From Cypionkella aquatica (lineage in GTDB: Bacteria; Pseudomonadota; Alphaproteobacteria; Rhodobacterales; Rhodobacteraceae): a stretch of DNA of 64,000 nt. The stretch spans positions 248,001 to 312,000 of the forward strand of contig NZ_BSPP01000002.1 of assembly GCF_030161095.1 (NCBI RefSeq), in the 5' to 3' direction. Under the pieces are notes generated by a model that saw only the letters and a list, made by a program, of their open reading frames with translations, did not search any database and was not told the origin of the DNA. Made by a program: the position numbers and the translations under genes. Shown in pieces: positions 1-17,548 of this stretch (the first letter of the stretch is position 1; the number at the start of each line of letters is the position of its first letter).

Positions 1-3000
1 CGGGCTTTGTGGCTGCCGGAAATCGGGATGGAAGCGACAGCCAATGCACGGTTGAAGCGGCCGTCGGTGCAATTGCCGCTGATCATGATTACCGAATATG
101 CGCTGGCGCAGCTGTATATGTCGTGGGGGGTGACGCCTACGGCGCTGGTCGGCCATTCGATGGGCGAGAACACGGCGGCCTGTCTTGCGGGCGTGATCAG
201 CTTTGAAGATTGCATCGGCCTTGTGCATCTGCGCGGCACGCTGTTTGACACGATTGCGCCGGGTGGGATGCTGTCGGTGCCCCTTTCGGAAGCGGATTTG
301 CGCCCGTTTATCGTCGGCGATCTGGATTTGGCTTCGGTCAATGCGCCGGGGCTTTGCGTGGTGTCCGGCCCGGATGCCAGCTTGCTGGCTTTGGCTGCGG
401 AACTGGCGAAGGTCGAGGTTGAGACCCAGCGGATTCAGATCGACATCGCTGCACACAGCCGGATGCTAGAGCCGATTTTGACGCGGTTTGGCGATTACCT
501 AAGAAAAGTTCACTTAAGCGCGCCGCAGATTCCGATTGTGAGCAATCGTTCAGGAATTATGCTGACTGAGGCCGAGGCCACCAGCCCGGACTATTGGGTG
601 CAGCACCTGCGCAACACAGTGAATTTCCAAGCCTGCATGGCCGATCTGATGGCAGAGCCGGGGCGGGTCTACCTTGAAATGGGCCCCGGTCGGGCGCTGT
701 CCTCCTTGGCGCAGGCCAATGGTGTGCCGCAGGGGCAAGTGATCGCGGCGCTGCGGCATCCCGAGCAGAAAATGGCCGATGATGCGTGGCATATGGCCAG
801 CATCGCGCGGCTGTGGGCTTGCGGCGTGGCGGTGGATTGGGAACCGATCTGGGCAGGCGCGCGGCGCAATCGGGTGGTGCTGCCGGGCTATGCCTTTCAG
901 CGCAAACCCTATTTCATCGAACCCGGCAAGGGTGCCGAGGTTGAGGCGCAGGCGCTGCCCGCCCGTATCGAGGATATCGGCGATTGGGGCTGGAAACCGC
1001 ATTGGCGGCCCGCGGCGACGGGATTTGACTTCGCCGCAGATTTTGGGGATGCGCCGAAAGAGAACTGGCTGATTTTCCTTGATAAAGAAGGCCTTGGTGC
1101 GATTTGTGCCGCAAAGCTGCGGGCGGGTGGGCACAATGTACAAACCGTGCGGGCGGCGGATGCCTTTGGCCGCGACGGCGAGGGCGGCTATATGCTGCCA
1201 CCCGAACGTGGTCGCGAAGGCTATGATCTGCTGATCCGCGATCTGGTGGCGCGGGGCCAAACCCCGAACCGGATTGCGCATTTCTGGCTGGTGACGCGGA
1301 GCCCCGATTTCCGCCCCGGATCAAGCTTTTTGCACCGCAATCTGGAGCAGGGCTTTTACAGTCTGATGTTCCTGGCCCAAGCGATTGCCGAGGAAAATCT
1401 GCCGCGCCCGTTGCATATCACCGTGGCCTCGACCGGGGCTTCGCAGGTGAAATCCGAAGCTTTGGCTGACCCGGAAAAGGCGATGATCGCAGGCCCCGCA
1501 CGGGTGATCCCGCGCGAGTTGCCGGGGGTGACGGTTTCGACCCTTGATCTGGCTTTGCCACCGCAGCCGCGTCGTGGCAAAGCCGCACTGGAGCCCTTGG
1601 CCGAGCAGGTGTTGGAAGATCTTCTGGCCGTGCCCAATAGCGTGATCGCAGCCCTGCGCGGTGAAAAGCGCTATGAACTGGGGTTGAAGGCCGCTGACCT
1701 TGGCGAACAAAAATTCACATTGCCGCAGGGCGCGCATGTGCTGATCACTGGCGGCTTTGGCGGCATCGGTTTGACCATCGCGGAAGACCTGATCCAGCGG
1801 TTTGGGGCGAAAATCACGCTGATCGCGCGGCGCAATCTGCCCGATCGGGGCACTTGGGCCAAGTATCTGGCGGCGCATGACCCCTCTGGCCCGATTGCGC
1901 GGCGGATTTTGGCGCTGCAACGGCTGGAAGCCTTGGGCGGCGAGGTTTTGGTCGCCCCAGCAGATGTCTGTAATCTGGAAGATATGCGCGCGGCGGTGGC
2001 TGCGGGCGTCGCCCGATTTGGCGCAGTGCGCGCGGTGATCCATGCGGCGGGCGTGGTGGACGACGGACCGCTGATGCTGAAAACCCCGGCGCATGTCGAA
2101 GAGGTGTTCGCGCCGAAACTGCATGGCACGCTGGTGTTGGATCGCCTGTTCCCGGATGGCACGCTGGATTTGTTGGTGCTGTTTGCCTCAACCTCTACAG
2201 TGACCGGGCCTGCGGGGCAGATCGACTATGTTGCGGCAAATCAATTCCTGAATGCCTATTCACAATCGCGCAGCACTGGCAAAACGCGGGTGATTGCGTT
2301 GAACTGGGGGATATGGACCGGCGTTGGCATGGCGGCCGAAGCTTTGGCTGACCGCACGGGGGCGCCGCCTGCACCGAGGCTGCCGATTTCCGCGCCACTT
2401 CTGGATGAAGCAAGCTTTGACGGCCAAGGAAATCGTCTGTTTACAGCGACTTATGCAATGGACCGTTGGGTGCTGGATGGCCACCGCACCAAGGCAGGTC
2501 AGGCGCTGATCCCCGGCACAGGCACGATCGAGATCGCCGCCGAAGCCCTGCGCGCGCAGGGAGAGACGGGGGCGTTTGAGCTGCGCGATCTGTATTTCTT
2601 CCGGCCCTTGGATGTGGCCGAGGGCGAGGCGCGGCAGATCCGGGCGACGCTGCCGCGCAGCGATGAGGGCTATGGATTTGAGTTGCGCTCTGGTGTGACG
2701 GTGAAAGGGCGGCTTGGTTGGCAGTTGCACGCACAAGCGCGGGCGATTCCGCTGGTAGCGCAGGCCGCGAAGATCGACGTTCTGGCGATTGCGGGTCGTT
2801 TACCTGCGGCAGAAGTGGGGCGCGGTTTGCGCAGCCCGCAGGAAGAGCATCTGAACTTTGGTCCGCGCTGGCGGGTGTTGAACTCGCGCTCTATTGGCAA
2901 AGATGAGGGGCTTGCGCGGCTGGCTTTGCCTGCGGAATTTGCTGACGAGGCGGGACCTTGGCTGCTGCATCCGGCGTTGATGGATTTGGCGACCGGTTGG

Positions 3001-4650
3001 GCGATGGGGCTGATCGACGGCTATCGCCCGGATCATTTGTGGGTGCCGGTGTCCTATGGCCGCATCCGGGTTTTGCGCCCGCTTCCTGCCGAGATTGTGT
3101 CTTGGGTGCGCAATGCGGCGGACAATCGGGCCAACCTGCCGACCGCCAGTTTTGATGTGACACTGGCCACGCCGGACGGCGAGGTTTGCGTGGAAATTGA
3201 AGGCTTTAACATCCATCGGCTGGAAGGGGCATTGAGCTTTACCCAGCCCGATCCGCGCGAATTGAGCTTTGACGAGACGGTGGCAAAGCCGGTTTCCCCC
3301 GCCGAAGAACGCCTGCTGCACAGCTTTAGCTTGGGCATCCAGCCCAGCGAAGGTGCCGAGGCTTTTGGCCGGGCGTTGGCCTTGGGCGGCAGTCAGGTGA
3401 TCGTGTCCAGCCTTGATCTGCCCGCGCTGATCCGGCAAACCGCCGAAGCCGAGGCTGCCAAAATCGAAGGCAAATCCTTTGAACGTCCCGATCTGGACAC
3501 GGCTTATGTGGAGCCGCGCAACGAGGTTGAGCGCACTTTGGTTGGCTTTTGGCAAGAGTTGCTGGGCGTGGCGCAGGTTGGGGTTGAGGACAGCTTCTTC
3601 GATCTTGGCGGCCATAGTCTGATCGCGGTTCGGCTGTTTGCGATGGTCAAAAAGGCCTATCGGGTGGATTTCCCGATCTCGGTTTTGTTTGAAGCGCCGA
3701 CGATTGCGCGCTGTGCGGCGCTGATCGTGGCGCAGATCGGGGATGTGGGCAGCGATCACCCGACGAAACTGGCGGCTCCGACGCGGCGGTTCACGCATCT
3801 GGTGCCAATGCATCAGGGCGAGGGCGGGCCGAAAACGCCGCTGTTCATGGTGGCAGGCATGGGCGGCAACGTGCTGAATCTGCGCCACATGGCAAATCTG
3901 ATGGGTGCGGATCGCCCGTTCTATGGGTTGCAGGCGCGCGGGCTGCTGGGAGATGATCAGCCGCATACCACGCTGCAACAGGCGGCGACTGACTATCTGG
4001 CCGAAGTGCGGCAGGTGCAGCCGCATGGGCCGTATGTGCTGGGCGGCTATTCCGGGGGCGGTCTGACCGCTTGGGATATGGCCCGCCAGTTGGAGGCCGC
4101 CGGCGAACACGTGGCGCTGGTGGTGCTGCTGGACACGCCGTTGCCGATGCGCCCGGTGGTGACTTCGCGCGACAAGGCTGTGATCAAACTGTTGGAGTTC
4201 CGCCGTAAAGGTGTGGGCTACTTGTTTGAATGGATCCAAAAACGCCATGCCTGGAATGTGCAGCAGCGCGCGCTGCGACGGGCTGGCCCCCCTGCCGAAG
4301 CGCCGACCGATTTCCACAATATGGCTGTCGAAGTTGCGTTCCGGGGGGCTTTGCCGCAGATGCAACTGGTCCGTCGGACCGGGGCGGCTGTGCTGTTCCG
4401 CCCGCCGATGGATCTGAAATGGCAGGTGGCTGCGGGCCGTTGGGTCAGCGATGCCAAGGAATACGTCTATCCCGACAATGACTGGGGTCAGTTTGCCCCC
4501 GCTTTGCAAACGATCGAGGTGCCGGGCGATCATGACAGTATGGTGCTCGAGCCGAATGTGCGGGTGCTGGTGGCGAAACTGCGTGCCGTGATTGCTGCGG
4601 CTGAAGCGGGCAGCAATAATATCGTGCCGCTTGCCACAGCGGCGGAGTGA
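1..4650 (+). CDS. Type I polyketide synthase, 5' end outside window (AT-KR-DH-ACP-TE)
   Basis: The reading frame is open through the left edge, so the N terminus (presumably a ketosynthase) is missing; residues here are counted from the codon at nt 7. The acyltransferase carries GHSMGE with nucleophile Ser51 and a later AAHS motif. A ketoreductase follows, with Rossmann motif GGFGGIG near 580 and a Ser/Tyr/Asn set ending in YVAAN near 740. A dehydratase-like double hot-dog starts with DGHRTKAGQALIPG near 820 and has HPALMD near 990. An acyl carrier protein has LGGHS with pantetheine Ser1204, and a thioesterase has GGYSGGG with Ser1349 and a candidate His1509 (PGDHDS). The thioesterase means this protein releases the chain. 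DH after KR is not the usual order (DH before KR). The stop lies 3 nt before the glycosyltransferase start, so the genes are probably co-transcribed. Extender specificity cannot be called from these motifs. Confidence 0.93.
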   Translation, partial: RALWLPEIGMEATANARLKRPSVQLPLIMITEYALAQLYMSWGVTPTALVGHSMGENTAACLAGVISFEDCIGLVHLRGTLFDTIAPGGMLSVPLSEADLRPFIVGDLDLASVNAPGLCVVSGPDASLLALAAELAKVEVETQRIQIDIAAHSRMLEPILTRFGDYLRKVHLSAPQIPIVSNRSGIMLTEAEATSPDYWVQHLRNTVNFQACMADLMAEPGRVYLEMGPGRALSSLAQANGVPQGQVIAALRHPEQKMADDAWHMASIARLWACGVAVDWEPIWAGARRNRVVLPGYAFQRKPYFIEPGKGAEVEAQALPARIEDIGDWGWKPHWRPAATGFDFAADFGDAPKENWLIFLDKEGLGAICAAKLRAGGHNVQTVRAADAFGRDGEGGYMLPPERGREGYDLLIRDLVARGQTPNRIAHFWLVTRSPDFRPGSSFLHRNLEQGFYSLMFLAQAIAEENLPRPLHITVASTGASQVKSEALADPEKAMIAGPARVIPRELPGVTVSTLDLALPPQPRRGKAALEPLAEQVLEDLLAVPNSVIAALRGEKRYELGLKAADLGEQKFTLPQGAHVLITGGFGGIGLTIAEDLIQRFGAKITLIARRNLPDRGTWAKYLAAHDPSGPIARRILALQRLEALGGEVLVAPADVCNLEDMRAAVAAGVARFGAVRAVIHAAGVVDDGPLMLKTPAHVEEVFAPKLHGTLVLDRLFPDGTLDLLVLFASTSTVTGPAGQIDYVAANQFLNAYSQSRSTGKTRVIALNWGIWTGVGMAAEALADRTGAPPAPRLPISAPLLDEASFDGQGNRLFTATYAMDRWVLDGHRTKAGQALIPGTGTIEIAAEALRAQGETGAFELRDLYFFRPLDVAEGEARQIRATLPRSDEGYGFELRSGVTVKGRLGWQLHAQARAIPLVAQAAKIDVLAIAGRLPAAEVGRGLRSPQEEHLNFGPRWRVLNSRSIGKDEGLARLALPAEFADEAGPWLLHPALMDLATGWAMGLIDGYRPDHLWVPVSYGRIRVLRPLPAEIVSWVRNAADNRANLPTASFDVTLATPDGEVCVEIEGFNIHRLEGALSFTQPDPRELSFDETVAKPVSPAEERLLHSFSLGIQPSEGAEAFGRALALGGSQVIVSSLDLPALIRQTAEAEAAKIEGKSFERPDLDTAYVEPRNEVERTLVGFWQELLGVAQVGVEDSFFDLGGHSLIAVRLFAMVKKAYRVDFPISVLFEAPTIARCAALIVAQIGDVGSDHPTKLAAPTRRFTHLVPMHQGEGGPKTPLFMVAGMGGNVLNLRHMANLMGADRPFYGLQARGLLGDDQPHTTLQQAATDYLAEVRQVQPHGPYVLGGYSGGGLTAWDMARQLEAAGEHVALVVLLDTPLPMRPVVTSRDKAVIKLLEFRRKGVGYLFEWIQKRHAWNVQQRALRRAGPPAEAPTDFHNMAVEVAFRGALPQMQLVRRTGAAVLFRPPMDLKWQVAAGRWVSDAKEYVYPDNDWGQFAPALQTIEVPGDHDSMVLEPNVRVLVAKLRAVIAAAEAGSNNIVPLATAAE

Positions 4651-4653
4651 AGC

Positions 4654-5649
4654 ATGGCGGGATTGCTGACGGTTTTGCTGAACTGGCGATCTGCCGAGAT
4701 GACGTTACAGGCGGCCGAAGCGGCGCTTGTGGCGCTGGACGGGATCGCGGGCGCTTTGGTGATCGTCGACAACGATTCCGGCGATGGCTCGTTTCAGGTG
4801 ATGCTGGCCGAGGTGCAGAAACGCGGTTGGGACAAAGGCGCGCAGGCGGTGCGGGTGCTGCAATCGGGGCATAACGGTGGCTTTGGGGCGGGTAATAACT
4901 TTGGCATCAGGGCGGGGATGCCCGATGGCTCGACACCGGATTTTGTCTATATTCTGAACTCGGATGCGTTTCCTGAACCGGATGCGATCCGGGCTTTGCT
5001 GTTGCATTTGCAGGCAAATCCGACGGTGGGATTCGCGGGCAGCTTTATCTATGGCGACGATGGCGCGGCGCATCGCACGGCGTTTCGGTTTCCGTCCATC
5101 GCGTCGGAGTTTGAGGGGCAGTTGCGGTTTGGCCCGGTCAGCCGGGCGCTGAACCGCTTTGTTGTGGCGCAGCCGATTCCGCAGGTGACCGGGCGGGTGG
5201 ATTGGCTGGCGGGTGCCAGTTTGATGATGCGGATGTCTGTGCTGCAGCAGATCGGCCTGTTTGATGAGCAGTTTTTCCTGTATTTTGAGGAAACCGATCT
5301 GTGCCGCCGTGCCGCCCTTGCGGGATTTCCGACCGATTATGTGGTGGAAAGCCGGGTGATGCATATTGGCTCTGTCTCGACCGGGATGCGGGAGTGGCAG
5401 AGGATCCCCAGCTTTTGGTTGGACAGTCGATTGCATTATTTCACGAAAAATCATGGGGTTGCCTATAGCGCGGCGGCGACTTTTTCGGTGCTTGTGGCCG
5501 GTCTTTTGTGGCGGGCACGCCTGTTGATCCAGCGCAAAGACCGTGGCGATCCGCCATTCTATTTGACCGACCTTGCGCGCCATGCTTTGCGCGCGATCTT
5601 TGCCAAGCCCAGAAACACCGCCCAATCACGACCCTCGGTTGAGGGGTAA
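4654..5649 (+). CDS. Family 2 glycosyltransferase (rhamnosyltransferase-like)
   Basis: This 331-residue GT-A glycosyltransferase should transfer a sugar from a nucleotide donor. The N terminus has the GT2 pattern: a short hydrophobic strand ending in NW, then VIVDNDSGDGS near residues 36-46 for nucleotide binding. A metal-binding-type NSDAFPEPD follows near 105, and an acidic acceptor-site stretch FEETDLCRRA near 215. It resembles bacterial WcaE/rhamnosyltransferase-like proteins. A hydrophobic segment near residues 270-285 may attach it to the membrane. It sits 3 nt after the PKS and 8 nt before the NRPS, so it probably decorates the cluster's product or a precursor; the sugar and acceptor are unknown. 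The ribosome site (GGAG) lies within the end of the PKS gene. Confidence 0.88.
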   Translation: MAGLLTVLLNWRSAEMTLQAAEAALVALDGIAGALVIVDNDSGDGSFQVMLAEVQKRGWDKGAQAVRVLQSGHNGGFGAGNNFGIRAGMPDGSTPDFVYILNSDAFPEPDAIRALLLHLQANPTVGFAGSFIYGDDGAAHRTAFRFPSIASEFEGQLRFGPVSRALNRFVVAQPIPQVTGRVDWLAGASLMMRMSVLQQIGLFDEQFFLYFEETDLCRRAALAGFPTDYVVESRVMHIGSVSTGMREWQRIPSFWLDSRLHYFTKNHGVAYSAAATFSVLVAGLLWRARLLIQRKDRGDPPFYLTDLARHALRAIFAKPRNTAQSRPSVEG

Positions 5650-5657
5650 GGACTCAT

Positions 5658-8600
5658 ATGACCCAGTTTTCCGCCTATCTGATCGGCAATGAAACCCTGA
5701 CCCGCCAGTGCGGCGAGGCTATTCTGGCGCGCGGACATCGGTTGGCGGCGGTGGTGACGCGCAACCAGGATGTGCGGCAGTGGGCGCAAAGTCGCGGATT
5801 GCGGGTTGAAGCTTATGGCGCGGATTTGGCGGAACGGCTGGGCGAAAAGGTCGATTGGCTGCTGTCGATTGCCAACCTGTCGGTGATTGCGGCGCCGGTG
5901 CTGGCGCTGGCGCGGGCTGGGGTGAATTTTCACGATGGCCCGCTGCCGCGCTATGCCGGGCTGAACGCGCCGGTCTGGGCCATTCTGGCGGGTGAAACGC
6001 AGCACGGGATTTCATGGCATGTGATCGAAGGCGGTGTGGATGAGGGTGACGTGCTGGAAAGCCGCAGCTTTGACATTGCCGCCGAAGATACCGCGCTGAC
6101 GTTGAACACCCGCTGTTTTGAAGCTGCGATGGAAAGTTTTCCCAGCGTTTTGGCACAGTTGGAAAGCGGCATCTTGCAGCGCAAGCCGCAGGATCTGTCG
6201 CAGCGCAGCCTGTTTCTGCGCAGTGATCGCCCGAAAGATATGGGGCGGATTGATTTTTCACAAAGCGCCGAGGCGGTGGTGCGCCTTGTTCGGGGCTTGG
6301 ATCATGGCCGCTACTGGAACCCGCTGACCACGGCGAAAATCGCTTTTGCAGACCGTGTTGTGAATGTCGGCGCGGCTGAGATTGCTGAGGGTGCAGGGCC
6401 GGTTGGTCAGATTTTGCAGGCAGACGACGCGGGGTTGGTGGTGGCTTGTGGTGCGGGTGCGGTGCGCCTGATGCGGTTAAGCTGTCAGGAAAAGGGGCTG
6501 GCTGTTGCCGCGTCCGCCCTGCACGGCAAAGTGATTTTGGCGCAGGTTGAGGGGCTGACCGCACTGGGGCAGAGCCTTGCTTTGGCTGAACCTGCGTTGC
6601 GTAAGGCATTGAAATCAATGAACCCCGCCGCGATTGGCCATGCCAGTGCTGATGCGGCGCAATGGCAAAGCCTGCCGCTGTCGGGCGGCTTGGCCGATCT
6701 TGCATTGGCCGCCGCTTTGGCAAATGGCGCAGGTGGTGTCGATCTGGCGCAGGCCGCGCAAGGCGTCGCGGGCTATGTCGCGGATTGGCGGCCTTTGCAT
6801 GTGGCCATCGCGGGCAGCGTGACAGAGGCGCGCGCGGCCTTGGATCTGGGTTCGACATCTGGCTTTGCGCTTGATCTGATGACTCGCGATGTCAGTCTGG
6901 CTGGCCTGCATTGTCCGCAGATTGGCGTTGCTGACGCGGGGCCGATTGCGGGGACAGTGGTGACGCTGACCCCAAGCGCGCTGCATTTCGACGCGGCCCG
7001 CCTGCACTTGGCCGAGGCGCAGAGCTATGCCGCGCGCATCGGCCATCTAGTTGCGGCCCTGACTGCTGCGCAGGGGGATGCACCGATTTCCAGCATATCG
7101 ACCCTGACGGATGCCGAGCGTGATCAGGTTTTGCATGGCTGGAACCAGACAAAAACTGATTACGATTCAAGCCTTTGCGTGCATCAGGCCTTTGAAGCAC
7201 AGGCGCTGCGCACCCCCGATGCGGTGGCTTTGGTCTGCAACGACGATAGCCTCAGCTATGCTGCGCTGAACGCGCGCGCCAATCAGGCGGCGCATGTGTT
7301 GATCGAAATGGGCGTGCGTCCGGGCACCTTGGTCGGGCTTTGCGCGCATCGCAGCCTTGATTTGTTGATCGGGGCTTTGGCCATTTTAAAGGCGGGCGGG
7401 GCGTATGTGCCGATGGACCCGGCCTATCCCGCTGATCGCATCGCCTTGTATATTGAGGATTCCGCCTGCCCGGTGATCGTCACCCAAAGCGATATCGCCG
7501 CTGGATTGCCGCAGCATCAGGCACAGGTTCTATGCCTTGATAGCGACACGCGTTTGAGTTTGGCGCGCGATGATAACCCTATATCTGGGGTCACCTCGGC
7601 CGATTTGGCCTATATGATCTATACCTCGGGCTCTACCGGTCGGCCAAAGGGCGTGATGGTGGAACATCGCAATGTCGCCAATTTCTTCACCGGCATGGAT
7701 CAGCGCATCGGTCCAGAGGCGGGGGTTTGGCTGGCCGTTACCTCTCTTTCGTTCGATATTTCGGTGCTGGAACTGTTCTGGACCTTGGCGCGCGGTTTCA
7801 AAGTGGTGCTGACCAGCGATGAGAACCGCGCCTTGGTGTCGGGCGGGGCGATCACGTCGGCGCAGAACATGGATTTCTCGCTGTATTATTGGGGCAATGA
7901 CGACGGCGCTGGTCCGAAGAAATATGAGCTGCTGCTTGAAGGCGCAAAGTTTGCCGACAGCCATGGGTTTTGCGCGGTCTGGACGCCCGAGCGGCATTTT
8001 CACGCCTTTGGCGGCCCCTATCCGAACCCATCGGTGACGGGTGCTGCGGTGGCTGCGGTGACGCAGAATATCGGCGTGCGGGCGGGATCTTGCGTGATGC
8101 CGCTGCACCATCCGGCGCGGATTGCTGAAGAATGGGCGGTGATCGACAACCTGACCAATGGCCGCGCCGGGGTGGCAGTGGCTTCGGGTTGGCACCCGGA
8201 TGATTTCGTGCTGCGCCCCGAAAACACGCCGCCCAACAACAAGGCCGCGATGTTTGCCGCAGCCGATCAGGTGCGCCGGTTGTGGCGGGGCGAAAAGGTT
8301 GGCTTTCCGACGGCGGATGGCGGTGTGTTCGAGTTGATCAGCCAGCCGCGCCCTGTGTCGAAAGAGCTGCCTTTGTGGGTGACGACGGCGGGCAATCCAG
8401 AGACATGGCGCGAGGCGGGGGCGATTGGGGCCAATGTGCTGACCCATCTGCTGGGCCAGTCTGTGGAAGAGGTTGGCGGCAAGATTAAGCTTTATCATCA
8501 AGCGCTTCGCGATGCCGGGCATGACCCGGCAAAGCATGTGGTGACGCTGATGCTGCACAGCTATATCGCGCAGGATCGTGATGCTGCACGCGAAGTGGCG

Positions 8601-10145
8601 CGGGGGCCGATGAAGGAGTACCTGCGCTCGGCTGCGGCTTTGATCAAGCAATATGCCTGGGCTTTCCCGGCGTTCAAAAAGCCGCAGGGCGTGTCAAACC
8701 CGATGCAGATCGACCTGCAATCGCTGAGTGGGGAAGAGACCGAGGCGATCCTCGATTTTGCATTTCAACGCTATTTTGAGGATTCTGGCCTGTTCGGCAC
8801 GGTTGACGATGCGCTGGCGCGGGTGGAACAATTGAAGCGGATCGGTGTTGGCGAAGTGGCCTGTCTGATCGACTTTGGCATCGCACCAGATTTGGTGATG
8901 GCGGGGCTGAAGCCGCTGGCCGAGGTGGTCAAGCGCGCCAATATGGGCGGCGTTGCGGCGGATGATTTTTCAATCGCGGCGCAGATTTTGCGGCATGGCG
9001 TAAGTCATCTGCAATGTACGCCGTCGATGGCGCGCATGATCGCTCTGAACGACGATTCACGTATGGCGCTGTCTGGTGTAAAAACCGTGATGCTGGGCGG
9101 TGAAGCATTGCCAAGCGCCCTGATCGCCGATCTGCGCAGCGCGACTTCGGCGCGGGTGCTGAACATGTATGGCCCGACCGAGACCACGATCTGGTCTTCG
9201 GTTGAAGAGGTGGGCGATGTGGAGGGGGTGTGCAACATCGGCAAACCCTTGGCGAACCAGCAGGTCTATGTGCTGGATAGCGCTATGACTCCGGTCGCGC
9301 CCGGTGTCGCGGGGGAGTTGTGGATTGGCGGCGATGGCGTCACGCGCGGCTATTGGCAACGCCCGGACCTGACGGCTGAGCGGTTTGTGAACGATAGTTT
9401 TGTCACCGCTGATCGGGCCAGTGCCTGGGGTGCGCGGATGTATCGGACTGGCGATCTGGTGCGCTGGCGCAATGATGGCAAGCTTGATTTTCTGGGGCGC
9501 ACTGACCATCAGGTCAAACTGCGCGGTTACCGGATAGAGTTGGGCGAGATTGAATCAGTGCTGGAGGCGCAGGCGGGCATCAAGCAAGCTGTGGTGATGG
9601 CGCGCGAGGACAACCCCGGCGATCTGCGGTTGGTGGCCTATCTGACTGGGCAATGGGCAGAGGCTGATCTGCGCACCAGTCTGGCCGATGCCTTGCCCGA
9701 GCATATGATACCCGCGCATTTTGTTGGGCTGGACAGCTTTCCATTGACACCCAACCGCAAGGTTGATCGCAAGGCACTGCCAGCGCCAAGCGCGAAGCCA
9801 TTGGAAGTGCAAAGCTTTGTTGCCCCAACCTCGGATATTGAAACGCAGATCGCTGCGATTTGGGCGCGGGTTTTGGGCGTGGCGAAGGTAGGCTCCAAGG
9901 ATAATTTCTTTGCTCTGGGTGGCCATTCGCTGCTGGCAGTGCAGGTGCATCGTGAGATCAGGGAAAGCCTTGGCGCGGCAAAGCTGTCGATCACTGACAT
10001 TTTCCGGTTCCCGGTGCTGCAGGCTTTGGCGGCGCATCTGGATGATCGGCCAAAAGCCGCGCCTGCTGTGATGTCGGATCGTGCCGATGCGCGTGCTGAT
10101 GCCATGGCGCGGCGTCGTGCGATGCGCGGTCAGGTGAATGGCTGA
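5658..10145 (+). CDS. NRPS initiation protein: formyltransferase - adenylation (with internal luciferase-like monooxygenase) - PCP
   Basis: Residues 1 to about 310 are a methionyl-tRNA-formyltransferase-like domain with the Asn90-His92-Asp128 catalytic set (NFHDGPLP, then GGVDEGD). Residues about 330-495 look like a condensation-domain remnant without HHxxxDG. The adenylation domain begins near 498, with core A3 near 653 (YTSGSTGRPKG) and A4 near 695 (SFDISVLE). It is interrupted at about 738-1095 by a flavin-dependent luciferase-like monooxygenase of the MupA/Atu3671 type. It resumes before A5 (NMYGPTE, near 1170) and continues through A7/A8 and A10 (NRKVDRKALP). A carrier protein with LGGHS, Ser1424, ends the protein. 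Aligning with GrsA gives specificity residues D-I-L-Q-M-G-M-I-W-K, close to the known glycine code DILQLGLIWK. There is no intact condensation domain, so it should start a chain. Start has AAGGA upstream; the 3' end overlaps the PPTase by 8 nt. Confidence 0.92.
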   Translation: MTQFSAYLIGNETLTRQCGEAILARGHRLAAVVTRNQDVRQWAQSRGLRVEAYGADLAERLGEKVDWLLSIANLSVIAAPVLALARAGVNFHDGPLPRYAGLNAPVWAILAGETQHGISWHVIEGGVDEGDVLESRSFDIAAEDTALTLNTRCFEAAMESFPSVLAQLESGILQRKPQDLSQRSLFLRSDRPKDMGRIDFSQSAEAVVRLVRGLDHGRYWNPLTTAKIAFADRVVNVGAAEIAEGAGPVGQILQADDAGLVVACGAGAVRLMRLSCQEKGLAVAASALHGKVILAQVEGLTALGQSLALAEPALRKALKSMNPAAIGHASADAAQWQSLPLSGGLADLALAAALANGAGGVDLAQAAQGVAGYVADWRPLHVAIAGSVTEARAALDLGSTSGFALDLMTRDVSLAGLHCPQIGVADAGPIAGTVVTLTPSALHFDAARLHLAEAQSYAARIGHLVAALTAAQGDAPISSISTLTDAERDQVLHGWNQTKTDYDSSLCVHQAFEAQALRTPDAVALVCNDDSLSYAALNARANQAAHVLIEMGVRPGTLVGLCAHRSLDLLIGALAILKAGGAYVPMDPAYPADRIALYIEDSACPVIVTQSDIAAGLPQHQAQVLCLDSDTRLSLARDDNPISGVTSADLAYMIYTSGSTGRPKGVMVEHRNVANFFTGMDQRIGPEAGVWLAVTSLSFDISVLELFWTLARGFKVVLTSDENRALVSGGAITSAQNMDFSLYYWGNDDGAGPKKYELLLEGAKFADSHGFCAVWTPERHFHAFGGPYPNPSVTGAAVAAVTQNIGVRAGSCVMPLHHPARIAEEWAVIDNLTNGRAGVAVASGWHPDDFVLRPENTPPNNKAAMFAAADQVRRLWRGEKVGFPTADGGVFELISQPRPVSKELPLWVTTAGNPETWREAGAIGANVLTHLLGQSVEEVGGKIKLYHQALRDAGHDPAKHVVTLMLHSYIAQDRDAAREVARGPMKEYLRSAAALIKQYAWAFPAFKKPQGVSNPMQIDLQSLSGEETEAILDFAFQRYFEDSGLFGTVDDALARVEQLKRIGVGEVACLIDFGIAPDLVMAGLKPLAEVVKRANMGGVAADDFSIAAQILRHGVSHLQCTPSMARMIALNDDSRMALSGVKTVMLGGEALPSALIADLRSATSARVLNMYGPTETTIWSSVEEVGDVEGVCNIGKPLANQQVYVLDSAMTPVAPGVAGELWIGGDGVTRGYWQRPDLTAERFVNDSFVTADRASAWGARMYRTGDLVRWRNDGKLDFLGRTDHQVKLRGYRIELGEIESVLEAQAGIKQAVVMAREDNPGDLRLVAYLTGQWAEADLRTSLADALPEHMIPAHFVGLDSFPLTPNRKVDRKALPAPSAKPLEVQSFVAPTSDIETQIAAIWARVLGVAKVGSKDNFFALGGHSLLAVQVHREIRESLGAAKLSITDIFRFPVLQALAAHLDDRPKAAPAVMSDRADARADAMARRRAMRGQVNG

Positions 10146-10785
10146 CATCGCAGAGCGGCTTCGCGCGGTTTTGCCGGAGGGCGTGGTGCTCGCCGAAGCG
10201 GGTGCAGCGCCCGTGCTGTGGCCGGGTGAAGCGGTGCCGGGTGCTGTTCCTGCACGCTTGGCAGAGTTTTCTGCGGGGCGGGACGCGGCGCGGCGGGCTT
10301 TGCGGGCTTTGGGCTTTGCTGGTGCAGCAATTCCGATGGACGCTGATCGCTCGCCGATTTGGCCGGATGCGGTGACGGGCAGCATCAGCCATTGCGCGGG
10401 GGCCTGTCTGGCAGTTATGGCGCATAGCAGGGCCTATCTGGGGCTTGGCTTGGATGTAGAGCCGCTGAAGGCGCTGCCGCCTGATCTGTGGCCGACCATT
10501 CTGCGGCCCGAAGAAATGCTGCAGCTTGCTGCACTTCCCGCTGCGCAGCATGGCTTGCAGGTTCTGCGGATTTTTGTTGCAAAAGAGGCGGCCTACAAGG
10601 CGCAATACGCAGTGTCGCGGCGTTTGTTCGATTTTCAGATGCTGCGGATTAACTGGCAAGATCAAGGCTTTAACGCCGAATTTTGCAGTGATGTCTCGCC
10701 ATTTGACGCAGGCTTTCAGATCAAAGGCGATGCCGCAGAAGACGCGGATTTCACTGCGGCGGTCTGCTGGCTGCCTATTGCGTGA
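10138..10785 (+). CDS. 4'-phosphopantetheinyl transferase, EntD/Sfp superfamily
   Basis: This 215-residue enzyme moves the phosphopantetheine arm from CoA to the serine of carrier domains. It has the expected motifs: TGSISHC (residues 80-86), the Mg-binding GLDVEP (104-109, Asp106 and Glu108) and FVAKEAAYKAQY (146-157). The last differs from the usual FSAKEA only at the second residue. Length and motif order fit the EntD-type family. The start codon lies inside the NRPS gene (8-nt overlap), which points to translational coupling and to the PKS Ser1204 and NRPS Ser1424 as natural targets. The 3' end overlaps the convergent protease gene by 11 nt. Confidence 0.93.
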   Translation: MADIAERLRAVLPEGVVLAEAGAAPVLWPGEAVPGAVPARLAEFSAGRDAARRALRALGFAGAAIPMDADRSPIWPDAVTGSISHCAGACLAVMAHSRAYLGLGLDVEPLKALPPDLWPTILRPEEMLQLAALPAAQHGLQVLRIFVAKEAAYKAQYAVSRRLFDFQMLRINWQDQGFNAEFCSDVSPFDAGFQIKGDAAEDADFTAAVCWLPIA

Positions 10786-11506
10786 ACATGCCAAAGGTCG
10801 CCAGCGGCACCCGCCGCAACATCGAGCCATAGACCACCGAATAGATGCCCTCGCCACTGCTATCGTCTGGGTCATAGATCCGCAGTGTCGTGGTGCTGCC
10901 ATCGTCGGCATGCGATCCGCGCGCGCCGACGATCACGACGTAATGGCCGGAGGAGCCTGTGCCACGGTTGAAGCTGGCTGGATTATGCAGCAATTCCAGC
11001 ATGATCGGGCCATGACGCAGCAAACCGATCAACACCGAAACCGGCCAGCTTTGCGGCGGTTGGTAGCGCAGGCGATGCAGGCGCGCAAAGGTCTGATGCA
11101 CCTCAAGCCGCTGGCCGCGCTCACTTTCGTTCAGCAATGAACCGTCGGCGGCAAGCAGCCGGGTGGGTGTGGTCATGCGAATGGATTGGATGGAAACCCG
11201 TGTCAGCATCGCCGTCGCAGCAGCCCAGCATGTGGTGGGTGTGGGTTGGCTGATATAGGGCACGTTGTGTAAAATAACCGGCGAAGTTTCGCGACCATGC
11301 AGTGCATCCAAGGTGCAAGGGCCTGCGATCCCGTCCATTTCCAACCAGTTAGAACGCTGAAACGCGACAACGGCACGCTCGGTCTGCGGGGTATAAAGGC
11401 CGTTCACGATCAAATTCGGCGAAGGGTTCAGTCGATTGTTCAGTGCCAATTGCAATTCGCGGACAGATTGCCCGGACGATCCTGGTCGAACAATGACATT
11501 TCGCAT
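10775..11506 (-). CDS. Papain-like cysteine protease with N-terminal peptidoglycan-binding-like domain
   Basis: This protein has 243 residues. Residues 4-70 match the PG_binding_1 helical repeat (GSSGQSVRELQLALN, then TERAVVAFQ and GIAGPCTLDAL). Residues about 80-243 match papain-like cysteine peptidases of the AvrRpt2/C70 kind: YISQPTPTTCWAAA places the nucleophile at Cys93, GHYVVIVG gives His188 and RIYDPDD gives Asp212. No signal peptide or lipobox is visible, so it is cytoplasmic or leaves by a route without a classical signal. The start is supported by CGGAGAC upstream. It is convergent with the PPTase gene and is not obviously part of either neighbouring operon. Substrate unknown; a toxin or effector role is possible but not shown by the sequence. 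Confidence 0.8.
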   Translation of the reverse strand: MRNVIVRPGSSGQSVRELQLALNNRLNPSPNLIVNGLYTPQTERAVVAFQRSNWLEMDGIAGPCTLDALHGRETSPVILHNVPYISQPTPTTCWAAATAMLTRVSIQSIRMTTPTRLLAADGSLLNESERGQRLEVHQTFARLHRLRYQPPQSWPVSVLIGLLRHGPIMLELLHNPASFNRGTGSSGHYVVIVGARGSHADDGSTTTLRIYDPDDSSGEGIYSVVYGSMLRRVPLATFGMFTQ

Positions 11507-11898: not shown

Positions 11899-12685
11899 GG
11901 GCGGTCTCCTGCGAAATGCGGTCGGTGTGGGTGTAGGCCTCAAACCGATCTGGACGGGCGAGGGCGATCAGGGTGATGCCAGCCTGATCGGCGAGGTGAA
12001 CGGCGTGGGCGGTGGGGGCAGAAACGGCAATCAGCATCGGGGCGCCAAGGGCGGCAACCTTCTGCACCATGTCGATGGAAACCCGGCTGGTCAGAATGAT
12101 CGCCCCGGTGGGATGCGGATTGCGGATCAGATGGCCGCAAAGCTTATCGAGCGCATTGTGGCGGCCAACATCTTCGCGCACGGCCAACAGTTTGTCGCTG
12201 AAGTAACCCGCAGCATGGACCGCGCGGGTCGTGTCGTGCAGCGGCTGGGCTGCGGGCAGGGCGGCGATGGCGGCCATAATCGCAGACGGGGCCATGCGGA
12301 AGCTGGTTTTCGGTACGGGCTGCATCACCCGCGTGGCTTCTTCCAGGCTGTCGATACCGCACAAGCCGCAACCCACTGGGCCCGCCATGGTGCGGCGACG
12401 CTTGGCCAGACGGGCTTCGGCCTGAGCTTCCAGCCAGATTTGAACGTCAAGGCCGAGCGGGGTTTCGACCACCTCAACACTTTGAATTTCTTTAGGTTTT
12501 GCGATGCCTTCGGTCAGTGCGAAGCCATAGGCGAAATCCACGAGATCAGACGGCGAGGCCATCATCACCGCTTGGGTCGATCCATTGAACGACAAAGCCA
12601 CCGCGACTTCTTCCGGCAGCTCTCGGCTGGCGGTGCCCGCGCCCGATCCGAAGATCAGGCGCGGCAAAGGGCGGTGGGTTTGCAT
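11888..12685 (-). CDS. fdhD: Formate dehydrogenase accessory sulfurtransferase FdhD (FdsC)
   Basis: This 265-residue protein delivers sulfur to the bis-MGD molybdenum cofactor before insertion into FdsA; in Rhodobacter operons it is called FdsC. The defining CxxC is present as CGLCG (Cys106 and Cys109 with the start used here), and the C-terminal half holds the conserved VREDVGRHNALDKL and ILTSRVS segments. The start is set at 12685, where ATG overlaps the fdsA stop as TGATG. The frame stays open to 12814 inside fdsA, but those residues show no family similarity. It lies fourth in the five-gene operon. Confidence 0.95.
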   Translation of the reverse strand: MQTHRPLPRLIFGSGAGTASRELPEEVAVALSFNGSTQAVMMASPSDLVDFAYGFALTEGIAKPKEIQSVEVVETPLGLDVQIWLEAQAEARLAKRRRTMAGPVGCGLCGIDSLEEATRVMQPVPKTSFRMAPSAIMAAIAALPAAQPLHDTTRAVHAAGYFSDKLLAVREDVGRHNALDKLCGHLIRNPHPTGAIILTSRVSIDMVQKVAALGAPMLIAVSAPTAHAVHLADQAGITLIALARPDRFEAYTHTDRISQETAHVA

Positions 12686-15561
12686 CACTCGGCTGCTGCG
12701 ATGCGGCGCGACATCGCGGCTTGGGCGTTGTATTCCTCTTGCCATTCCGACGGGCCGTTGCTGGGCGAGACTTGCACAGCGGTGACCTTGTATTCGGGGC
12801 AGTTGGTGGCCCAATCCGAGAAATCGGTGGTGATCACGTTGGCCTGCGTGTCGGGGTGGTGGAAGGTGGTGTAAACCACGCCCGGATTAACCTTGTCGGT
12901 GATCGTGGCGCGCAGGGTTGTGTCACCCGAGCGGGATGCCAGACGGACAAAGTCGCCATCCTTGACGCCGCGCACTTCGGCGTCATGCGGGTGGATTTCC
13001 AGCACATCTTCGGCATGCCAAGCGACGTTGCCGGTGCGGCGGGTTTGCGCACCGACGTTGTATTGCGACAGGATACGGCCCGTGGTCAGCAAAAGCGGGA
13101 AGCGCGGGCCGGTTTTCTCATCCGTCGCGACATATTCGGTGTTGATGAATTTGCCCTTGCCGCGCACGAAAGCCTCGACATGCATCAGCGGCGTGCCTTC
13201 CGGGGCGGCGTCGTTGCAAGGCCATTGGATCGAGCCCATCGTTTCCAGCTTTTCATAGTTTACGCCCGCGAAAGACGGCGTGGTCATGGCGATTTCGTCC
13301 ATGATTTGCGTGGGATGCGTGTAGGACCAAGCAGCACCCATCGCATTGGCGAGCATCTGGGTGATCTCCCAATCGGCATAGCCATTGCGCGGGGCCATCA
13401 CTTTGCGGACGCGGTTGATGCGGCGCTCGGCATTGGTGAATGTGCCGTCCTTTTCGAGGAAGGTGGAGCCGGGCAGGAACACATGCGCGTAATTCGCGGT
13501 TTCATTCAGGAACAGATCGTGGACGATCACACATTCCATCGCGGCAAGGCCCGCTGCGACGTGTTTGGTGTCGGGGTCGGATTGCAGGATGTCTTCGCCT
13601 TGGCAATACAGACCCTTGAAGGTGCCCTCGACCGCTGCATCCAGCATGTTCGGGATGCGAAGCCCCGGTTCGTCATCAATCTTGACGCCCCAAGCCTTCT
13701 CGAAAATGTCGCGCACGCCTTCACCTTTGACATGGCGATAGCCCGGCAATTCATGCGGGAAAGAGCCCATATCACAGGAGCCTTGCACGTTGTTCTGCCC
13801 GCGCAACGGGTTCACGCCCACACCGGGGCGGCCAATGTTGCCAGTCATCATCGCCAAGTTAGCAATGCCGATCACGGTGGTCGACCCTTGGGAATGTTCG
13901 GTCACGCCGAGGCCGTAGTAGATCGAGCCGTTGCCGCCCTTGGCAAACAGCCGCGCCGCAGCACGCACTTCAGCAGCGGGAACGCCGGTCAGCAGGGCCA
14001 CGGATTCCGGCGAGTTTTGCGGTTGGCTGACGAATTCGGCGTAGTCCTGGAATTCATCCCAATCGCAGCGGTCTTGGATGAACTGGGCATCGAACAGGCC
14101 TTCGGTCACGATCACATGCGCCAAAGCCGTGACGATGGCGACGTTGGTGCCGGGGGTCAAAGCGAGGTGATGTTCGGCTTTGACATGCGGCGCTTCGACC
14201 ATTTCGGTGCGGCGCGGGTCAATCACGATCAGCTTGGCACCCTGACGCAGCCGCTTTTTCAAACGGCTGGCAAAGACAGGGTGGCCGGAAACCGGGTTCG
14301 CGCCGATCACGATCACCACATCGGTTTCTTCCACCGAATCAAAGTCTTGCGTGCCAGCACTGGTGCCTAGAGTTTGCCCCAGACCATAGCCGGTGGGCGA
14401 ATGGCAAACGCGGGCGCAGGTATCCGTATTGTTGTTCATAAACACGGCGCGGGTCAGTTTTTGAACGAGGTAAGCTTCTTCATTGGTGCAGCGCGACGAG
14501 GTGATCACGCCGACCGAATGGCGACCGTGCTTTTCGATAATGCCCTTCATCCGATTGGCGGTGAAGTCCATCGCCTCATCCCAGGACACTTCCTGCCACG
14601 GATCGTTGATGCTGTCGCGGATCATCGGGTTCAGGATGCGGTCTTTGTGCGACGCGTAACCGTAGGCAAAGCGGCCTTTGACGCAGGAATGGCCACGGTT
14701 GGCCTTGCCGTGTTTGTAGGGCACCATGCGCACCAATTCGTCGCCGCGCATTTCAGCTTTGAAGCTGCAACCGACGCCGCAATAGGCGCAGGTGGTGATG
14801 ACAGAGCGTTCAGGCGTGCCGATTTCGATGATCGACTTTTCTTGCAAGGTTGCGGTCGGGCAGGCCTGCACGCAAGCGCCGCAGGATACGCAATCGGACG
14901 ACAAAGCGGTGTCGGTTTTCGCACCGAAAGACACGCGGCTATCAAAACCACGGCCTTCGATGGTCAAAGCGAAGGTGCCCTGAACTTCCTCGCAGGCGCG
15001 GACGCAGCGCGAGCAGACGATGCATTTTTGCGGATCATAGCTGAAATACGGGTTGGAATCGTCGCGCGGAATGTAGTTCGGGTTGGCGATGCCGGAGGTG
15101 TCTTTGGCTTTGAAATGGGTGTCGATCGCCTCGTACCGCACGTCGCGCAGACCGACCGCGCCCGCCATATCCTGCAACTCGCAATCGCCATTGGCCGAGC
15201 AGGTCAAACAATCCAGCGGGTGGTCCGAGATATAGAGCTCCATCACGCCACGCCGCAGTTGCTTCAGTTTGGCGTTCTGAGTGTGGACTTTCAGGCCGGG
15301 GGCGACCGGGGTGGTGCAAGAGGCCGGAGTACCGTTGCGGCCTTCGATTTCAACAAGGCACAGGCGGCACGAGCCGAAAGCGTCGATGCTGTCGGTGGCG
15401 CAGAGTTTTGGCACCGAAATGCCGATTTCTGCGGCGGCGCGCATGATGCTGGTGCCTTCTGGCACGGTGATGTCAAAGCCGTCGATGGTCAATGTGACCA
15501 TTTGTTTGCTTTTCGCGGCAGGGGTGCCGAAATCGCGATCCGGGATGATGAAGTCTTTCAT
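12685..15561 (-). CDS. fdsA: NAD-dependent formate dehydrogenase alpha (molybdopterin) subunit
   Basis: This 958-residue catalytic subunit oxidises formate to CO2 at a bis-MGD molybdenum centre. The N terminus is a [2Fe-2S] ferredoxin-like domain (Cys54, 65, 68, 82), followed by a NuoG-type His114/Cys118/121/127 cluster site. Two [4Fe-4S] sites begin at Cys180 and Cys224, and the molybdopterin domain opens with CAYCGVGC near 258. The molybdenum ligand is Cys386 in ARVCHSP, followed by the catalytic histidine; R. capsulatus FdsA also uses Cys386, which supports the start chosen. It is a cysteine, not selenocysteine, enzyme. The start overlaps fdsB by 4 nt (ATGA) and the end overlaps fdhD. Confidence 0.97.
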   Translation of the reverse strand: MKDFIIPDRDFGTPAAKSKQMVTLTIDGFDITVPEGTSIMRAAAEIGISVPKLCATDSIDAFGSCRLCLVEIEGRNGTPASCTTPVAPGLKVHTQNAKLKQLRRGVMELYISDHPLDCLTCSANGDCELQDMAGAVGLRDVRYEAIDTHFKAKDTSGIANPNYIPRDDSNPYFSYDPQKCIVCSRCVRACEEVQGTFALTIEGRGFDSRVSFGAKTDTALSSDCVSCGACVQACPTATLQEKSIIEIGTPERSVITTCAYCGVGCSFKAEMRGDELVRMVPYKHGKANRGHSCVKGRFAYGYASHKDRILNPMIRDSINDPWQEVSWDEAMDFTANRMKGIIEKHGRHSVGVITSSRCTNEEAYLVQKLTRAVFMNNNTDTCARVCHSPTGYGLGQTLGTSAGTQDFDSVEETDVVIVIGANPVSGHPVFASRLKKRLRQGAKLIVIDPRRTEMVEAPHVKAEHHLALTPGTNVAIVTALAHVIVTEGLFDAQFIQDRCDWDEFQDYAEFVSQPQNSPESVALLTGVPAAEVRAAARLFAKGGNGSIYYGLGVTEHSQGSTTVIGIANLAMMTGNIGRPGVGVNPLRGQNNVQGSCDMGSFPHELPGYRHVKGEGVRDIFEKAWGVKIDDEPGLRIPNMLDAAVEGTFKGLYCQGEDILQSDPDTKHVAAGLAAMECVIVHDLFLNETANYAHVFLPGSTFLEKDGTFTNAERRINRVRKVMAPRNGYADWEITQMLANAMGAAWSYTHPTQIMDEIAMTTPSFAGVNYEKLETMGSIQWPCNDAAPEGTPLMHVEAFVRGKGKFINTEYVATDEKTGPRFPLLLTTGRILSQYNVGAQTRRTGNVAWHAEDVLEIHPHDAEVRGVKDGDFVRLASRSGDTTLRATITDKVNPGVVYTTFHHPDTQANVITTDFSDWATNCPEYKVTAVQVSPSNGPSEWQEEYNAQAAMSRRIAAAE

Positions 15562-17084
15562 TCGGCGGCTTCCTTCATAGGGGCGAAATCATCGGGAAAG
15601 TGGGTCAGCGCGGACATCACCGGGTAAGGCGTGAAGCCGCCCAAGGCGCAAAGCGAACCGGACTTCATCGTGTTGCACAGGTCGGTCAGCAGCGGGATTG
15701 CCGAGGCGTCACCCTTGGCAATCCGGTCCACGGTTTCAACGCCGCGCACAGCACCAATGCGGCAGGGTGTGCATTTGCCACAGGATTCAATCGCGCAGAA
15801 TTCCATCGCGAAGCGTGCCTGTTTCAGCATGTCGGCAGAGTCGTCAAACACCGTCAGGCCAGCGTGGCCGATCAAGCCATCCTTGCCCGCGAATTCTTCG
15901 TATCCGAATGGCGTGTCGAACAAAGCGCGCGGGAAATAGGCACCCAAGGGGCCGCCAACCTGCACCGCCTTGACCGGGCGACCCGAGGCGCTACCGCCCG
16001 CAATTTTATCAACAATTTCGCCCAAGGTCAGGCCAAAGGCGATCTCAAACAGGCCGCCGTGCTTGACGTTTCCGGCGATCTGCAACGGGATGGTGCCCCG
16101 CGAACGGCCAAGGCCGAAGTCCTTGTAGAACGCGGCGCCTTTCTCGAAAATCACCGGCACCGAGGCCAGCGAAATCACGTTGTTCACCACGGTTGGTTTC
16201 GCCATGAAGCCTTGCAGCGCGGGCAGCGGCGGCTTGGCGCGCACAACACCCCGTTTACCTTCAAGCGAGTTCAGCAGGCTGGTTTCCTCGCCACAAACAT
16301 AAGCCCCGGCACCAACACGAATTTCGATGTTGAACGCGTTGGCCGAGCCCAAAACCGAAGCCCCCAGCACGCCTGCATCGGTGGCAATTTTCACCGCCTT
16401 TTGCATCACTTCAATGGCAATCGGGTATTCTGAACGGATATACACAAATCCCTTGGTGGCCCCGGTGGCAAGGCCTGCGATGATCATGCCTTCGATCAGA
16501 GTGAAGGGGTCGCCTTCCATCAGCATGCGGTCGGCGAAGGTGGCGCTATCGCCTTCATCCGCGTTGCAGACGATGTACTTGCGATCCGCCACAGCCTCGG
16601 ACACGGTTTTCCACTTAATGCCCGTCGGAAAGCCCGCACCGCCACGACCGCGCAGGCCGGAATTGGTGACTTCGGCAACGATGCCAGCTTTATCCATGCC
16701 AAGCGCCAGCGTCAGGCCGGCCAGCCCGCCGTGGGCCTTGTAATCATCAAGCGACAACGGGTCGATCACGCCAACACGCGCGAAGGTCAGCCGGGTTTGG
16801 GCCTTAAGCCACGGTAAGTCTTCGGTTTTTCCCAAAGCCTTCGGATGCGAAGCCAGATCGCCGAACAGCGCAGGCACATCGCTTAATGTCAGCGGGCCGA
16901 ATGCCATGCGACCTGCATCGGTGACGATTTCGGCCATCGGCTCCAGCCAGACCATGCCATGCGAGCCATTGCGAACAAGCGTTAGGTTTACACCGCGCGC
17001 TTTGGCTTGGAACATCAGCGACTCAGCAATTTCATCAGCACCAAGCGCTACGGCGGCGCTATCAAGGGGCAGGTAAATCTTCAT
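15558..17084 (-). CDS. fdsB: NAD-dependent formate dehydrogenase beta (FMN/NAD-binding) subunit
   Basis: This 508-residue protein is homologous to complex I NuoF, preceded by a thioredoxin-like ferredoxin segment. It binds FMN, NAD and a [4Fe-4S] cluster and passes electrons from FdsA to NAD+. The glycine-rich nucleotide site is GRGGAGFPTG (residues 146-155). The C-terminal cluster motif ESCGKCTPCRIG is followed by a further Cys in SLCALGG. ATGA overlaps at both ends (fdsG and fdsA) indicate a tightly coupled operon. Confidence 0.96.
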   Translation of the reverse strand: MKIYLPLDSAAVALGADEIAESLMFQAKARGVNLTLVRNGSHGMVWLEPMAEIVTDAGRMAFGPLTLSDVPALFGDLASHPKALGKTEDLPWLKAQTRLTFARVGVIDPLSLDDYKAHGGLAGLTLALGMDKAGIVAEVTNSGLRGRGGAGFPTGIKWKTVSEAVADRKYIVCNADEGDSATFADRMLMEGDPFTLIEGMIIAGLATGATKGFVYIRSEYPIAIEVMQKAVKIATDAGVLGASVLGSANAFNIEIRVGAGAYVCGEETSLLNSLEGKRGVVRAKPPLPALQGFMAKPTVVNNVISLASVPVIFEKGAAFYKDFGLGRSRGTIPLQIAGNVKHGGLFEIAFGLTLGEIVDKIAGGSASGRPVKAVQVGGPLGAYFPRALFDTPFGYEEFAGKDGLIGHAGLTVFDDSADMLKQARFAMEFCAIESCGKCTPCRIGAVRGVETVDRIAKGDASAIPLLTDLCNTMKSGSLCALGGFTPYPVMSALTHFPDDFAPMKEAAE

Positions 17085-17548
17085 TTCAGACCCCCAATGA
17101 TCGCGTCAATCCGGGCTTCATCGACCCGGCCCACCAGCTTGCCATCGACAATCGCAGCCGGGCCGCAGGCGCACAGGCCAAGGCAGAAAATCGGCTCCAG
17201 CGTCACATTGCCGTCTTTGGTCGTTTCATGCCATTCGATGCCCAGAGCCTTTTGCGCATGGGCGGCGACACGATCTGCCCCCATCGACTGACAGCTTTCG
17301 GCGCGGCAGAGTTTCAGCACATGCTTGCCCGCAGGATGCTCGCGGAAATCGTGATAAAAGCTCATCACGCCATGCACTTCGGCCTTCGACAGGCTCAGAT
17401 CCTGCGCGATGATCGGCAACGCCGCTTGCGGCACATAACCAAATTCGGCCTGAATCGCATGCAGGATCGGAAGCAGAGAACCCTCCATCCCTTTGTGAGT
17501 GTTCAGGATTTCCTCAACCCGGGTGGTGATATCGGCGGAATCAAGCAT
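17081..17548 (-). CDS. fdsG: NAD-dependent formate dehydrogenase gamma subunit (NuoE-like)
   Basis: This 155-residue NuoE homologue carries one [2Fe-2S] cluster in the electron path to NAD. Ligands are Cys81 and Cys86 (CRAESCQS) and Cys122 and Cys126 (CLGLCACGP). The start at 17548 (MLDSADITTRVEEIL) gives the usual family length and has AAAGGG upstream; the frame is open 28 codons further but those residues are not family-like. It is the first structural gene of the operon and follows the lysR gene on the same strand. A palindromic LysR-type site lies in the gap. Confidence 0.93.
   Translation of the reverse strand: MLDSADITTRVEEILNTHKGMEGSLLPILHAIQAEFGYVPQAALPIIAQDLSLSKAEVHGVMSFYHDFREHPAGKHVLKLCRAESCQSMGADRVAAHAQKALGIEWHETTKDGNVTLEPIFCLGLCACGPAAIVDGKLVGRVDEARIDAIIGGLK

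Follow-up and report, generated by a model that had tools for sequence, protein, structure and literature searches.

The window analysed here, a stretch of 64,000 nucleotides from one contig of the Cypionkella aquatica genome, carries at its left end an operon with a polyketide synthase (PKS) gene and an NRPS gene. The NRPS gene is an open reading frame of 1495 amino acids (5658-10145, + strand), and its product is called the loader below. The features of the operon, numbered from the first letter of the window, are:

1..4650, +: 3' part of the PKS gene (Pfam); the whole gene (G000:C2:246258-252650, 2130 aa, KS-AT-KR-DH-ACP-TE) begins some 1.7 kb before the left window edge
4654..5649, +: glycosyltransferase family 2, between the PKS and NRPS genes (PF13641, PF00535; a rhamnosyltransferase match is far below cut-off)
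5658..10145, +: putative loading module, formyltransferase (FT) - probable condensation-lobe remnant - adenylation domain (A) with luciferase-like monooxygenase (LLM) - carrier protein (PCP) (Pfam, NCBIfam, ortholog alignment)
5658..6545, +: FT domain, approximately residues 1-296, Fmt/ArnA fold, N90 H92 D128
6522..7154, +: probable C-terminal lobe of a condensation (C) domain, approximately residues 289-499, with the HHxxxD lobe missing (hhalign, hmmsearch)
7170..7871, +: first part of the A domain, A1-A4 (Pfam)
7875..8927, +: LLM insert, TIGR04020, PuwE-like (NCBIfam; PuwE 6ket, E 8.3e-100)
8952..9782, +: second part of the A domain, A5-A10
9846..10040, +: PCP, Ser1424 (Pfam, ortholog alignment)
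10138..10785, +: 4'-phosphopantetheinyl transferase, 3' of the loader (PF17837, PF01648)

Upstream of the operon are genes for Wzz, a kinase-like protein, WecG, an acyltransferase and a glycosyltransferase. Beyond these come a flippase, a GT4, a sugar transferase and sugar genes of Rml type; at this locus, the names "kinase-like" and "Rml" come from Pfam matches and from relatives. The initial annotation of the loader missed the probable C-lobe remnant, the upstream PKS, the family 2 glycosyltransferase, the phosphopantetheinyl transferase and the polysaccharide locus. Past the operon, the minus strand encodes a small protein with PG_binding_1 and papain-like Peptidase_C70 matches (10775-11506; PF12385, E 4.2e-9). 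It also carries NAD-dependent formate dehydrogenase-like genes (12685-17632), whose position near a predicted formyl-using enzyme is probably a coincidence.

Domain structure and conservation of the loader

Pfam matched Formyl_trans_N at residues 63-165 of the loader, Formyl_trans_C at 193-284, AMP-binding in two stretches, Bac_luciferase at 748-1064 and PP-binding at 1397-1461. The NCBIfam model TIGR04020, to which we take the published MOx domains (myxothiazol, melithiazol and the PMC12283262 set) to belong, matched at 740-1090 with 475 bits against a cut-off of 244. The LLM lies 3' of A4 (code residues 700, 701 and 704) and before A5 (1145 onward). Its nearest solved structure is PuwE (PDB 6ket), and the top PDB match of the A-PCP part is LgrA. 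The Pfam and NCBIfam results bear out the initial annotation, which had placed FT, A and PCP in one protein with an LLM between A4 and A5. Reading the ten-residue specificity code again gave the same residues, DILQMGMIWK. The comparison made there to "the known glycine code DILQLGLIWK" held only in part: this literal code was absent from our literature search, but it occurs exactly in an LLM-less relative (L100).

The loader has no condensation-domain match in Pfam, and has an FT and a probable C-lobe remnant instead. When the linker between FT and A was searched alone (about residues 285-505), Pfam also gave no match. Among 48 single orthologous linkers, one matched Pfam Condensation (E 0.035); a few linkers scored as well or better with unrelated families. 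Then 77 linkers, of which filtering kept 74, were combined into a profile and compared by hhalign with a profile of eight condensation domains. The probability was 94.6 (E 6.6e-8), and the linker aligned to the C-terminal lobe (template 186-446 of 446). As controls, the linker was set against six profiles of PKS domains, the C profile was set against profiles of three other NRPS domains, and columns were shuffled five times; none of these controls scored above 1.1. Linkers trimmed at one or both ends gave probabilities of 70.7, 69.6 and 92.5. In the PDB, the linker profile (hmmsearch) picked out the closing stretch of solved C domains together with the C-A linker, with a best E of 2.5e-10; these matches cover mainly profile positions 176-239 and were accompanied by one weak unrelated match. 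A fold search with a structure model of FT and linker together returned a list filled by formyltransferases, with no condensation domain among the matches listed. The linker is probably a C-lobe remnant, supported strongly at the end of the lobe and moderately in its middle. In the eight reference C domains, HHxxxD is found at residue 111-134, which is the part absent from the linker. Since the linker resembles the C-terminal lobe and the HHxxxD-bearing part is missing, the FT very likely stands where a C domain once had its catalytic half.

Conservation was read from a 77-row alignment, consisting of the query and 76 of the 80 best-scoring loci, a sample that leans towards close relatives. 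Four loci (L026, L064, L065 and L066) were omitted because the longest-ORF pick fell on the opposite strand. FT residues N90, H92 and D128 are kept in 77/77 rows, and the PCP Ser is kept in 76/77, the remaining row having a gap. The code is DILQMGMIWK in 64 rows, DILQLGMIWK in 6 and DILQFGMIWK in 4, with 3 others (2 of these with a gap or X). An LLM is present in all 80 best-scoring loci and lies within the A domain of the loader in the aligned rows. At the level of sequence, the intact triad supports the formyltransferase, and the conserved code supports the glycine activation, that had been proposed for this protein.

Loader matches with an E value of 1e-100 or better were found in at least 145 of 394 family genomes, and 65 of 198 genomes, counted by hand, had some 1100 aligned residues or more. 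Databases already label such proteins by their LLM domain. Gene fragments occur among the loader matches; these fragments, and matches beyond those listed, may hide more LLM-less cases. One genome (G630) has a partial second copy. In the C. aquatica genome, two pairs of matches with identical scores (G000 C7:682346 and C14:3501; C1:125132 and C6:15779) suggest redundant contigs. The same cluster was found in four Hydrogenophaga (Betaproteobacteria) records (L038, L039, L040 and L044). The two of these loci in the tree, L039 and L044, nest inside Rhodobacterales loci, which suggests horizontal transfer. A Rhodobacteraceae-type cluster is also found in L050, a record titled Exiguobacterium profundum MAG, whose assembly is probably mixed or wrongly labelled.

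The PKS partner and the polysaccharide locus

The PKS was aligned with 69 others (+ strand, longer than 1900 aa). Catalytic residues of KS, AT, KR, DH and ACP are present in 70/70 of these proteins, and the TE Ser and TE His are each present in 69/70. A genome-wide search of the C. aquatica genome detected no condensation domain (PF00668). An assembly gap was considered as the cause and dropped, as the genome is 99.91% complete. Two relatives, G144 and G498, have genes for KS-AT-KR-DH-ACP-C-A proteins after the loader gene, and in these two genomes and in G225 a KS gene comes directly after it. This order in G144 and G498 argues that the loader would feed the KS of the neighbouring PKS. The starter role suggested in the initial annotation is favored by the gene order in relatives and by the lack of a detected C domain in the same genome, but the order in the window is not collinear, with the PKS gene upstream in the same operon. 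Among longer relatives, loader and KS-AT-KR-DH-ACP-C-A genes occur together in L102/L103 and L140, and L161 has a 3082-aa PKS-NRPS. These loci are without the tested polysaccharide neighbours and perhaps make free metabolites. An ordinary C-A(LLM)-PCP protein with the code DILQLGMVWK was found in G485; in this analysis it is the closest link between the LLM and the published MOx domains.

At least one of Wzz, Wzx, WecG, sugar transferase and kinase was found in 65 of the 80 best-scoring loci. Among loci of 24 kb or more, 58/68 have polysaccharide markers; the 15 loci of the 80 without any tested marker include 5 short ones and 10 of 24 kb or longer. The only Wzz over cut-off in the C. aquatica genome is 6.7 kb from the PKS start. 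Five loader-bearing genomes were also in our Wzz survey, and all five have Wzz within 15 kb of the loader (1-3 Wzz matches per genome, one of the five borderline). Aminobacter MSH1 and Shinella, which belong to another order, have such polysaccharide neighbours too, in a rearranged gene order. In 15 other loci, markers were found in ten and none were found in G144, G225, G525, G498 and Aliiroseovarius M344, a division drawn after inspection of the loci. Four of these five marker-less loci form one A-domain clade (bootstrap 99), and the tree leaves the group of G144, G498, G225 and M344 placeable inside or outside the polysaccharide-linked loci. In this genome, as in most but not all relatives, the operon is part of a polysaccharide locus of the Wzx/Wzz type.

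If these neighbours are a genomic-island coincidence, the product could be a free diffusible small molecule, such as a metal binder, a signal or an antibiotic. PKS-NRPS clusters usually yield free metabolites, and the TE, with Ser and His kept in 69/70, could simply hydrolyse. The marker-less loaders (G144, G498, G225, G525 and Aliiroseovarius M344), the 15/80 loci without markers and the extra C-A module fed in G144 and G498 point the same way. Coincidence does not readily explain why loci from two orders, with their genes rearranged, share the markers (Aminobacter, Shinella and the window) or why Wzz is within 15 kb in all five surveyed genomes, one of them borderline. We consider a free product unlikely.

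Natural losses and the site of oxidation

Two LLM-less relatives, G085 and G097, were seen among the matching genomes (at least 145/394). A third candidate, G629, was dropped since a contig end falls inside its gene. G085 has the code DILQLGLIWK and intact FT, PCP, KS, AT, ACP and TE residues; its KR is without S, Y and N, and its DH is gone. Its congener G799 has kept LLM, KR and DH, and the two are sisters with an ultrafast bootstrap of 100. In G097 (L101 8189-18511), the residues of FT, KS, AT and KR are lost, as are the PCP Ser and the DH His, and this locus nests among LLM-bearing loci (bootstrap 100). KR and DH are intact in LLM-bearing loci, in the 70/70 aligned and in eight more that were read. 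Given the joint loss of LLM and KR/DH in G085 and G097, and the intact KR/DH where the LLM is present, LLM and beta-processing go together.

The losses in G097 are uneven. Its A domain is 77 and 71% identical to that of L054, compared to 69 and 73% between L054 and L087. For ACP and TE, identity to L054 is 71 and 65% (72 and 68% for L054-L087); for KS, AT and FT, it is 48, 35 and 43% (84, 81 and 58% for L054-L087). Overall, A, ACP and TE are at 65-77% and KS, AT, FT and PCP at 35-48%. This pattern, which comes from one genome without a second species of its genus, suggests that only A, ACP and TE are constrained in G097 and that the TE may transfer to an acceptor. Even with little more than glycine activation, ACP and TE left, the line seems to be of use, as would be expected if the TE transfers its load to an acceptor. 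With a free product, such a line would release just glycine, which speaks against the diffusible molecule considered above. These natural losses, of the LLM with KR/DH and of everything except A, ACP and TE, offer a direct way to test how labour is divided along the line.

The position oxidised by the LLM, on which the initial annotation did not commit itself, can be approached through published monooxygenases in glycine A domains; these point to Calpha. The MOx of myxothiazol and melithiazol is described as acting at the end of a peptide line, where Calpha is hydroxylated, the N-Calpha bond breaks and glyoxylate stays on the carrier (PMC11342130). A survey gives four MOX-bearing glycine A domains with the code DILQLGMIWK, reports that all MOX modules in its set are glycine A domains, places the inserts between A8 and A9 and names beta-hydroxylation (PMC12283262), which is at odds with the A4-A5 position of the LLM. 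The query code differs from this published code by one change (L299M), and 6/77 rows are identical to it. By analogy, the LLM should oxidise Calpha of N-formylglycyl-S-PCP. Oxidation by the inserted domain, as proposed in the initial annotation, finds sequence support here, since the MOX-bearing A domains of the survey are all glycine domains. Our literature search found no case of a MOx acting on formyl-glycine.

Acyl-chain hydroxylation, rather than hydroxylation of glycine, has been proposed for the LLMs of puwainaphycin (PMC4219810) and palmerolide (PMC8739492), so oxidation could follow KS extension. The LLM would then alpha-hydroxylate the extended acyl thioester on the PKS ACP, and the joint disappearance of LLM and working KR/DH would fit. 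We find this improbable given that the LLM is in 80/80 best-scoring loci, in place inside the loader A domain in the aligned rows, and that, for MOx in glycine A domains, the reported substrate is PCP-bound glycine (PMC11342130). Hydroxylation of nitrogen, giving an N-formyl-N-hydroxyglycyl (hydroxamate) starter, is more doubtful still. An FT and a flavin monooxygenase acting on one amine recall the N-hydroxy-N-formyl ornithine units listed in PMC12283262, but the LLM has PuwE as its nearest solved relative, and for PuwE and MOx domains it is carbon that is described or proposed to be hydroxylated.

Oxidation of glycine at Calpha leaves two outcomes, which are branches of the same explanation. 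If the N-Calpha bond breaks, as reported for the MOx of myxothiazol and melithiazol (PMC11342130), the formamide would be lost and glyoxylyl-S-PCP would be the true starter. This outcome is possible, although we do not expect it. G085, which has no LLM, keeps its FT residues intact; the formyl group thus seems to be of use even where the LLM is missing, and N-acyl hemiaminals can be stable. The G085 residues mildly favor a retained formamide over a glyoxylyl unit.

We propose the following route, with oxidation at Calpha of PCP-bound formylglycine. Judging from its code, the A domain would activate glycine and load its own PCP. The FT, from its fold and triad, would formylate the amine using formyl-THF, so that the N-acyl group comes from a domain standing in for the lost catalytic half of a C domain. 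The LLM inside A would hydroxylate Calpha of N-formylglycyl-S-PCP, as reported MOx domains in glycine A domains suggest, to give an N-formyl-alpha-hydroxyglycyl unit, or a glyoxylyl unit if the N-Calpha bond breaks. This unit would pass to the KS of the neighbouring PKS, in the direction suggested by gene order in relatives, for one extension followed by reduction and dehydration. The TE would then move the short acyl group to a surface-polysaccharide acceptor, as synteny and the one stripped variant suggest. We rate at about even chances that a formylated, Calpha-oxidised glycyl starter undergoes one PKS extension and is delivered by the TE, probably to polysaccharide. The earlier reading of a formyl-glycine starter with built-in oxidation is partly supported by these comparisons.

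More tentatively, many Rhodobacterales and some Hyphomicrobiales may carry a two-protein NRPS-PKS line for decorating surface polysaccharide. In such a line, an FT would have replaced half of a C domain, a MOx-glycine module would have become an N-formyl-alpha-hydroxyglycyl (or glyoxylyl) polyketide starter, and the PKS TE would serve as an acyltransferase onto sugar. If this is true, assembly-line biosynthesis would be a common means for marine and freshwater bacteria to edit their sugar coats, and not just a source of free metabolites. It would also explain why the gene is found in about a third of the sampled family genomes.

Comparison with known systems

Roseobacter PKS and NRPS genes as such are already in print (PMC4062626). 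Our search of open-licence papers found none on FT with LLM and A domain and none on FT with an N-formylglycine polyketide; a formyltransferase mentioned in one paper on roseobacters proved unrelated. An FT-for-C-lobe starter or a polysaccharide link was not found described in the text that the search covered, and no product, mutant or assay for this line was found. Such a search is weak evidence of absence.

The locus resembles Wzx/Wzy-type exopolysaccharide loci in its flippase, Wzz, kinase-like protein, sugar transferase, Rml-type sugar genes and glycosyltransferases. To our knowledge, a PKS-NRPS pair is not a usual component of such loci. The loader shares with LgrA, of linear gramicidin synthetase, an FT fused ahead of A-PCP. 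LgrA formylates valine and hands it to a C domain; the loader differs from LgrA in its glycine code, LLM insert, C-lobe remnant and a KS as the likely acceptor. The oxazolomycin and conglobatin PKSs use N-formylglycine starters made by FT-A-PCP loading, which is the arrangement of the loader. Their formylglycine unit becomes an oxazole, unlike what we propose here, and we know of no LLM in either loading protein.

In PuwE, the oxygenase domain is located between an aminotransferase and the NRPS module of a PKS-NRPS (PMC4219810), whereas the LLM of the loader is inside the A domain. A monooxygenase (MOx) inside a glycine A domain is also the arrangement in myxothiazol, melithiazol and some corallorazine-like NRPSs (PMC11342130, PMC12283262). 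The four published MOX cases have the code DILQLGMIWK compared to DILQMGMIWK in the loader, and their insert is placed at A8-A9 compared to A4-A5 (PMC12283262). In the MOx systems as described, glycine is at the end of the peptide line and is cleaved, and glyoxylate is released by a TE; the loader, in contrast, seems to start a polyketide, with an FT in the place of the C domain.
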